The position numbers and the translations under genes were made by a program. This document shows positions 12,106 through 30,119 of a stretch of DNA of 41,882 nucleotides, piece by piece. A model generated the notes under the pieces. That model did no database searches and was not told the origin of the DNA. It was given only the letters and a program-made list of their open reading frames with translations. Position 1 is the stretch's first letter, and each line of letters begins with the position of its first letter. The stretch comes from Armatimonadota bacterium (GTDB lineage: Bacteria > Armatimonadota > Armatimonadia > Armatimonadales > Armatimonadaceae), in NCBI GenBank assembly GCA_014380815.1, contig JACMJB010000257.1, positions 1-41,882 on the forward strand, given 5' to 3'.

Positions 12106-12897
12106 TCAGGGACGCTTGGGGCGCCGCCGCAGGGCCAGAAGCGCGGCATCATCACGCAGCTTTCGAGTTCCCGCGAACGCTCGGACCTGCCCCAGCAGCT
12201 TCCGCACCAGCCGGGCAGGAGACAGGGGCAGGAACCGCACCAGCCAAGCGCGAAGCCGTTCCACGCCGAGGAAGGCTCTGCCTCTTCGCGCTTCCGTCAG
12301 GCCGTCGGAGTACAAAAGGAGTGTGCCACCGGGAGGGAGGGTCGCCTGGCGACTCTCGTAGCGCACCTCCTCAGCAGGGAACGCGCCTACCGGCGGACCG
12401 GTGCCAATAAGTTCTTGAACGGATACCGGCTTGTGCGCAGACGGGCCAGCAGCAGTGGTGGGAGCGGCAAGCAGAGCCGGTTCGTGGCCGCCGCTGGCGT
12501 ATTCGATATGCCCAGTCTCTGTTTCGACCGTTCCCGCGATGACAGTGGCAAAGCCGGGGAACTCCGGGTCCATTTCGGCGGCGGCGTTGACAAATCCAAG
12601 GGCATCCGAGGGGGTCAGCCCTTCGTCCAGGCAGCCGGTGATCGCCTCTTTCAGGTACTCCGCCTGGACCGCCGCCTCCGCCCCGTGCCCGGCGACATCA
12701 CCAAGCACAAACGCGACCTTCGCGTCGTCCTTGAGCGGGAACGCAGCATGGAAGTCTCCCCCTGTGGGCGGCACCAGTGGTGACTGAGCATGTGCCGCGA
12801 TAAAGTTTGCCGCCAGGGTCTTGCTGCCGGTATCCAGCGTTTCGACGGTTTCCGTGGAGGCGGCCGGTGCGAAGTCAGTGTTGAGAGGCGTTTCCAT
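12106..12897 (-). CDS. PP2C/SpoIIE-type serine phosphatase
   Basis: 263 residues that form a stand-alone PPM domain. Metal-binding motifs are visible: TGGDFHAAFPL (first Asp), FVLGDVAGHGAEAA (DVxGHG), then GHIEYASGGHEPALL, TLLLYSDGLTEAR and RDDAALLALRRR (final Asp). Such phosphatases dephosphorylate anti-sigma-factor antagonists (RsbU, SpoIIE) and similar targets. No sensor domain is attached, so input must come from partners. No anti-sigma or STAS gene is adjacent. The ATG overlaps a TATAAT, so the exact start is less sure. The 249 bp upstream, shared with the divergent reductase gene, show no other clear element. Confidence 0.88.
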   Translation of the reverse strand: METPLNTDFAPAASTETVETLDTGSKTLAANFIAAHAQSPLVPPTGGDFHAAFPLKDDAKVAFVLGDVAGHGAEAAVQAEYLKEAITGCLDEGLTPSDALGFVNAAAEMDPEFPGFATVIAGTVETETGHIEYASGGHEPALLAAPTTAAGPSAHKPVSVQELIGTGPPVGAFPAEEVRYESRQATLPPGGTLLLYSDGLTEARRGRAFLGVERLRAWLVRFLPLSPARLVRKLLGQVRAFAGTRKLRDDAALLALRRRPKRP

Positions 12898-28455: not shown

Positions 28456-28914
28456 TCATAACTGTTCAAGGATGTTTTTCACGCTTTGCCGCTCGTTGTA
28501 TGTCTGGAGAAACCAGCGCAAGGAGCCATCGTGCATCTTAGGGCACTTGCTAAACGAGAGCGTCTTGCACACGAAGCGACCGAGCCTTTGCCGAATATGG
28601 TTGTTCATTCGCTCGACTATGCAGGTTTTGCCGCTTTCTTTTCCTCGTGGGCGATGCTGCCAGCACGGTATCCCTGAAAGGTAAGCTTCGTAAAAGTCTT
28701 TGTATACCAACTTGCGGCGGTAACCCTTCAGGACGCGCTGCCACAGCAAACGGCAAGTTTCGGCGCTTCGGTCACATACGGCGTAAGCCACCACTTGACG
28801 GGTTCGCCAGGAGACGATCAACCACGCCCACTTTTTGTTACGCTTCTTGGTGACGAGACTCCACATCTCGTCCGCTTCTGAACTATCGCCTTTCTTTGCG
28901 GGCCGGACCGTGGT
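28456..28914 (-). mobile_element. IS1-family transposase remnant
   Basis: The C-terminal part of an InsB-like DDE transposase. The frame contains ADEMWSLVTKKRNKKWAWL (first Asp), KLVYKDFYEAYLSGIP (second Asp), then KESGKTCIVERMNNHIRQRL (Glu) and GRFVCKTLSFSKCPK, the classic IS1 tail. The ORF from ATG 28866 gives 136 residues; homology-like sequence (VRTTVRPAKKGDSS) continues in frame to about 28914, where two TGA codons stop it. I could not find the InsA zinc-finger half or terminal inverted repeats. The 28915-29150 stretch may hold further decayed remains in another frame but nothing I can name. Confidence 0.82.
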
Positions 28915-29150: not shown

Positions 29151-30119
29151 TTAAGCGACCGCGATGGCCTCACCCCTGGCGGCGGAGAAGGGCGGAGAGG
29201 AAACGGATGCCGCTGGCTGCACCACTTCGAGAACGACCGTGGTTCCCTTCGTGCCCGTGAGCAGATACGCGATGCTCACCAGATTGAGGACCAGATACCA
29301 CCCCTGACCTGCCGTTCCCGCGGTCGAATACCCCTGCTTCAGCGTCGCAATCGGCAGCCGGTCCAGCGGGATGCCCTTCCCGATATCCTCGATCCACACC
29401 TGGATCTTTTCCTCTGTGCACCGGCAACAGACAGTGCCGCCGCCTGCGTGCGTCAGCGCATTCATTGCCGCTTCGTGAACGGCAAGGAGCAGGTCATTGA
29501 CGAGATCACTGCTGAAACCGGCTCCCACCGCCACCTTGCGCAGGGACTGCCGCAACGCCCGCAGGTCCCACGACTCGCGCACGGTCTGCAACAGGACGCA
29601 TTCATCCAGAGCCGCGGGCAGGTCCGTCCGGGTTTCGCAGAGCATCAGGCGTCCCTCGGTCGCACTGTCGAGAATATCCCGGAGCCACTGATGCTGCTGG
29701 CGCAGGGCAGCCTTCTGGGTCAGGATGGTCAGCGGCGCATCCAGCGCCAGCGGGAGCAGCTTGATCAGGCTGATCGCGGTGACCAGAGAAACCGTGGCGG
29801 TGATGCCCCGGATCAATCCATTGATCCGGTAAACCGGATAGTAAAACATCAGCGCATCGAAGAAGTGTGTCCAGCCACATGCGGTGATGAACAGAGCATA
29901 CAGGAGCAGTATCGCCAGGGTCGCTCGCTGCAGACGCACCTGCTGCCGCCGCACGAAGGACATCCGCAGCATCAGCAGGGGGATCCAGAGATACGAGAGC
30001 CAGGTGACGACGTCGGAAACGAGATGAAGACTGACCAGCGAGTTATCCCAGACGCCGCAGTAACGGCGCGGCATGAAGCCGTCACCGCTCAGAAGATTGA
30101 GCCAGAAGTCCAAAGTCAC
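29151..30119 (-). CDS. Ethylene-receptor-like membrane sensor fused to an RsbW-type ATPase domain
   Basis: 322 residues. Residues about 28-125 form three membrane helices that match the copper-binding ethylene domain of plant ETR1 and its bacterial relatives: D36 and Y43 in SDVVTWLSYLWIP, and I78, C81 and H85 in FITACGWTHFFD. These correspond to ETR1 D25, Y32, I62, C65 and H69 with the same local spacing. After a coiled linker (ALRQQHQWLRDILDSATEG) comes a HATPase_c_2 domain: LLLAVHEAAMNALTHAG (E216, N220), WIEDIGKGIPLDR (D245, G247, G249) and GTAGQGWYLVLNL. There is no HisKA dimerisation/phosphoacceptor domain, so the output is probably a serine kinase or anti-sigma interaction. Seven residues precede no obvious partner gene. 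Confidence 0.82.
   Translation of the reverse strand: MTLDFWLNLLSGDGFMPRRYCGVWDNSLVSLHLVSDVVTWLSYLWIPLLMLRMSFVRRQQVRLQRATLAILLLYALFITACGWTHFFDALMFYYPVYRINGLIRGITATVSLVTAISLIKLLPLALDAPLTILTQKAALRQQHQWLRDILDSATEGRLMLCETRTDLPAALDECVLLQTVRESWDLRALRQSLRKVAVGAGFSSDLVNDLLLAVHEAAMNALTHAGGGTVCCRCTEEKIQVWIEDIGKGIPLDRLPIATLKQGYSTAGTAGQGWYLVLNLVSIAYLLTGTKGTTVVLEVVQPAASVSSPPFSAARGEAIAVA

Follow-up and report, generated by a model that had tools for sequence, protein, structure and literature searches.

Does the copper and ethylene site of plant ETR1 always stand at the head of a histidine kinase, or can it also be coupled to an ATPase of the kind that operates in partner switching? This question is raised by a gene of an Armatimonadota bacterium (assembly GCA_014380815.1), on the minus strand of contig JACMJB010000257.1, within a stretch of 41,882 nt that is called the window here. 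Plants themselves mostly signal without the histidine kinase activity of the ethylene receptor. The initial annotation of the gene had described an ethylene-receptor-type domain fused to a lone HATPase_c_2 domain rather than to HisKA, and had proposed an output through partner switching. The architecture is confirmed: ETR1_N is joined by a short linker to HATPase_c_2, and HisKA is absent. The features are as follows, with residue numbers counted from the GTG codon.

29151..30119, minus strand: whole gene, ETR1_N, coupling linker and HATPase_c_2 (open reading frame, Pfam, orthologue alignment)
29739..30038, minus strand: ETR1_N with three predicted transmembrane helices, residues 28-127 (Pfam PF25487, E 9.2e-24; found at the same place in the genome search)
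29979..30014, minus strand: helix 1 site residues D36, Y43, I46 and P47, corresponding to ETR1 D25, Y32, I35 and P36 (alignment)
29865..29888, minus strand: helix 2 putative copper/ethylene site I78, C81 and H85, corresponding to ETR1 I62, C65 and H69 (alignment)
29808..29810, minus strand: R104 at the position of ETR1 K91 (alignment)
29568..29738, minus strand: coupling linker, residues 128-184, with the module signature WLRDILDSATEGRLMLC and lacking a conserved histidine (module alignments)
29226..29711, minus strand: full recurrent output module, residues ~137-298 (profile A1, 228 bits in the host genome, the profile having been built from 20 sequences that include the window copy)
29229..29567, minus strand: HATPase_c_2 / GHKL ATPase, residues 185-297 (Pfam PF13581, E 4.1e-12; residues invariant in 33/33 module copies)

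The open reading frame encodes 322 amino acids if translation starts at the GTG at 30119. In the alignment the orthologues begin two residues further on, where the window gene has a TTG (30113) with AGGA 8 nt upstream of it; TTG is therefore the likelier start, and the true protein is probably 320 amino acids long. ETR1_N scores 84 bits against a Pfam cut-off of 27, and only this domain and HATPase_c_2 exceed their cut-offs in the protein. A HisKA domain in the linker, the possibility against which the annotation was to be checked, did not appear in the Pfam scan at E<=1. This absence is informative because the scan does detect HisKA in further proteins with ETR1_N, and in one of these, L083, the linker is about as short. 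Neither of the two marks of a two-component histidine kinase, HisKA and a conserved phosphoacceptor histidine, was found for the window protein. The ExxxN and DxGxG motifs that had been read in the ATPase are present as E216-x3-N220 (N box) and D245-x-G-x-G249 (G1 box), followed by G271-x-G273 (G2) and T293. The predicted structure, run with three sequences, is good and usable for the ATPase part alone; in the membrane part, where three helices are drawn, pLDDT lies mostly between 30 and 53, and one continuous helix spans residues 95 to 153 in this low-confidence model. No solved structure of an ETR1_N relative was found.

Among 291 Armatimonadota genomes, 11 have ETR1_N over the cut-off, and in five of those 11, all in the family of the host, it is fused to the HATPase_c_2 module. 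In others of the 11, ETR1_N heads ordinary kinases; two that were scanned (L018 and L076) contain HisKA and HATPase_c. Five orthologues of the same architecture occur in separate genomes, which rules out a chance fusion or an assembly join. On plasmids, ETR1_N was found in 18 records from Cyanobacteria and Proteobacteria; none of the 18 carries the module, for which tblastn gave no plasmid match. On the Acaryochloris plasmid pMB03 (L086), an IS1 transposase gene comes after an ETR1_N open reading frame of 298 amino acids, and a gene for an ATP-binding protein after that; an insertion may have split an ethylene receptor gene here.

How much of the ETR1 site is retained? Wang et al. are said to have found in 2006 that D25, Y32, I35, P36, I62, C65 and H69 of ETR1 are needed for ethylene binding. 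In the alignment, all seven are kept in the window protein and in all five orthologues; the five residues named at the outset (D36, Y43, I78, C81 and H85) hold, and I46 and P47 are kept as well. Seven residues are likewise mentioned in PMC11819568, with D25, C65 and H69 named, and ethylene binding has been shown by experiment for the ETR1_N domains of AzoEtr1 and SynEtr1 (PMC11819568, PMC6682694). The clade stands apart at the position of ETR1 K91, a residue predicted to bond to D25 and to be involved in receptor output (PMC11819568). It is arginine in 5/5 orthologues and lysine in 15 of the 17 other ETR1_N proteins compared, the exceptions being L087, in which the aspartate is lost too, and the short open reading frame beside the IS1 element in L086. 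Since the five orthologues form one branch in the tree (100/100 support), the replacement is a single evolutionary change and not five. The lysine that is absent here is a common feature of ETR1_N and does not define binding. The loop between helices 1 and 2 is also slightly longer in the window protein; this and K91R could change the ligand or the coupling.

In genomes of order-mates of the host (G020, G021, G022), four proteins (L009, L041, L042 and L043) have a diverged ETR1_N-like membrane domain that remains below the Pfam cut-off. Its hhalign probability against ETR1_N is 80%; the D and C-x3-H positions are kept, those of Y and K are not. In L009, L041 and L042 its fusion partner is again the output module of the window protein, and in G021 a gene of this fused type and the GAF-SpoIIE gene upstream of it overlap by 4 bp.

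The C-terminal part of the protein is one copy of a module that is widespread in the phylum. With the window protein as query, relatives are found in 49 of the 291 genomes of the phylum, nearly all through residues ~135-300, while a few match through ETR1_N alone. This module of ~165 amino acids has, by profile A1, five full copies and fragments in the host and ~36 copies in the closed genome G020. It consists of a helix with the signature FLRDVLaSVTEGrLxLC and then the ATPase, and Pfam recognizes only HATPase_c_2 and HATPase_c in it. In 33 copies there is no variation at E216, N220, D245, G247, G249, G263, G271, G273 and T293, whereas no linker histidine is conserved; on this ground a phosphoacceptor hidden in the linker was rejected. 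Sensors of many kinds precede the module: CHASE3, PAS, GAF, receiver, HAMP, Cache and DUF4118. As the initial annotation had supposed, the ATPase resembles anti-sigma factors and serine kinases. The module profile matches RsbW (1e-9) and SpoIIAB (1e-8) in the PDB ahead of the first histidine kinase (6e-6), and the predicted C-terminal fold has RsbW as its top match and SpoIIAB as its second. RsbA, SpoIIAB and RsbW are also the most frequent NCBIfam matches, all far below curated cut-offs: RsbA (NF041045) comes first, in 20/20 module members, and the window protein reaches 39.5 of 210 bits for NF041045, 25.9 of 145 for PRK04069 and 19.1 of 155 for TIGR01924. The module appears to be an unnamed and undescribed output class.

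Two other architectures were noted. In L015 the module forms the C-terminus of a hybrid histidine kinase, after HisKA-HATPase-receiver, which suggests that a phosphorelay can feed it. At L100:4491-7429 (contig C130 of G000), a module paralogue with an unrecognised N-terminal domain is overlapped at its start, by 4 bp, by a gene for a KaiC-like double ATPase.

In G020, a SpoIIE-type PP2C gene, among the SpoIIE matches listed, is found no further than 2.5 kb from 10 of the 34 module genes, against a mean of 0.82 and a maximum of 7 in random circular shifts (p 0.0002); recent duplicates among these pairs inflate the count slightly, so that it is approximate. The control with HisKA genes gave 1/34 at the same distance against 0.66 expected, and STAS genes show no enrichment (0/34 within 2.5 kb). 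Module, SpoIIE and STAS genes recur together in G020 near 3158300-3163300, 4252700-4253900 and 6968100-6972500, in blocks that look like duplicates within one genome. Twelve other genomes have a SpoIIE neighbour for 12 of 86 modules, and overall the modules with such a neighbour are a minority. In four single open reading frames, SpoIIE and the module share one chain. On contig C209 of the host, the genes for a receiver-PAS-module protein and a receiver-PAS-SpoIIE protein are convergent.

The suggested search of the host genome for STAS partners gave 6 STAS matches, and there are 15 for SpoIIE. On contig C433, genes for STAS, HATPase_c_2 and a sigma factor that exceeds the SigBFG cut-off are consecutive on one strand; by gene content this is an rsbV-rsbW-sigB-type locus. 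The linkage of modules to PP2C genes and this locus lend independent support to the idea of partner switching.

Near the receptor gene itself lie genes for a thioredoxin-like protein, a NUDIX protein and, just downstream, an IS1-family transposase (28456-28866). A PP2C gene does occur elsewhere in the window and, as had been remarked, is not adjacent (12106-12897, minus strand; SpoIIE 2.6e-39). Neither SpoIIE nor STAS genes were seen beside the window gene or the examined orthologues, whose neighbours are unrelated, and a search of the orthologue contigs for a conserved operon partner found none.

It may be proposed, with slightly more confidence than doubt, that the protein is a membrane receptor in which an ETR1-type site controls an RsbW-like ATPase that feeds a partner switch in trans. 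The receptor would be a dimer with Cu(I) probably bound at its three-helix site (C81, H85, D36), and the ligand would be ethylene or a similar small unsaturated molecule. Occupancy of the site would move helix 3 together with its helical continuation, and this movement would control the serine-kinase-type GHKL ATPase (RsbW/SpoIIAB/RsbA-like), by a linker-controlled logic comparable to what PMC12143880 reports for RsbU and for dimeric outputs of other kinds. The ATPase would most likely phosphorylate a STAS anti-anti-sigma protein, or else hold and release a PP2C phosphatase, so that the circuit would act in trans on a sigma factor of the SigB type, provided that the window copy works with a partner of the kind that its paralogues have.

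The nature of the ligand and that of the output can be questioned separately. With the same output, the N-terminal domain might respond not to ethylene but, for instance, to copper itself, to a different olefin or to CO. The clade retains the copper ligands, yet it alone has arginine for K91; no ethylene-related gene was seen next to the receptor gene; and the diverged cousin, which retains only the D and C-x3-H positions and is fused to this module, suggests a broader family of copper sites. Against this, all seven ethylene-binding residues of ETR1 are unchanged, and ethylene binding is known for bacterial members of two phyla in which these residues are identical (PMC11819568, PMC6682694), so that another ligand seems rather unlikely.

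As to the output, the ATPase might have no kinase activity and act as RsbT does, binding a PP2C phosphatase through a coiled-coil linker and so activating or sequestering it. The segment GYSTAGTxGxG is presumably reminiscent of RsbT. The frequent neighbours and fusion partners of the module are PP2C phosphatases and not STAS genes, and RsbT activates RsbU by binding to the RsbU linker (PMC12143880). The catalytic residues, which mere binding would not require, are nevertheless invariant, and the NCBIfam matches are RsbA, SpoIIAB and RsbW; we regard a pure binder as unlikely. More improbable still is a non-canonical histidine kinase that would feed a response regulator after phosphorylating a histidine of its own or one in a separate HPt-like protein. 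A weak HATPase_c match (1.8e-5) in the window protein, some lower-scoring histidine kinases among the results of the fold and profile searches, and the occurrence of a module in a phosphorelay protein such as L015 speak for it. It is contradicted by the lack of HisKA in a scan that finds this domain in other ETR1_N proteins, and by the sole linker histidine, H143, which is glutamine in 2/5 orthologues and missing from most modules; nor are modules enriched near HisKA genes in G020. A probable non-phosphorelay output is the reading supported.

A wider interpretation can be offered as a tentative one, somewhat short of probable: a gas receptor built like that for ethylene in plants but placed on a serine-kinase partner switch, with arginine for K91 at the site of coupling, and, in a broader sense, a class of Armatimonadota sensory kinases that has no name, with ~36 copies in one genome, and that would place many sensors, two kinds of ETR1-like copper-site domain among them, ahead of PP2C/STAS circuits. 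A gas or copper signal may then feed another control circuit than in plants and cyanobacteria. As a natural receptor with the same putative binding site and a small, different output, the protein would make the coupling of the three helices to the output directly testable, and its natural K91-to-Arg swap points to a coupling residue. The module, found behind many sensors and next to PP2C phosphatases, outlines what appears to be an unstudied signalling system in a phylum about which little is known.

A literature search gave nothing relevant on an ethylene receptor with RsbW, an anti-sigma-type ATPase or partner switching. The passages of a review (PMC7700396) that concern bacterial ethylene-binding proteins describe diverse output domains, among which an anti-sigma-type ATPase is not named, and the characterised ethylene receptors named in the cited literature are all of the histidine-kinase type (PMC6682694, PMC11819568). 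SynEtr1 of Synechocystis, AzoEtr1 of Azospirillum and plant ETR1 share with the window protein the three-helix ETR1_N domain and the conserved D, Y, I, P, I, C and H. They differ from it in their histidine-kinase-type outputs (PMC6682694, PMC11819568), whereas the window protein has the HATPase_c_2 module, no HisKA, and arginine for K91; HisKA was present in all four ETR1_N relatives scanned. On the output side, fold searches point to two proteins that combine an RsbW-like ATPase with regulatory domains in one chain, the PP2C-plus-ATPase protein Rv1364c of M. tuberculosis (3ke6) and the receiver-ATPase LvrC of Leptospira (9qih), both without ETR1_N. The RsbA family differs in its N-terminal part. 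RsbW and SpoIIAB, the best profile and fold matches, have the ATPase fold and its motifs in common with the window protein, but they are soluble, single-domain, sigma-binding proteins, whereas the ATPase of the window protein is carried on a membrane sensor by a conserved linker.
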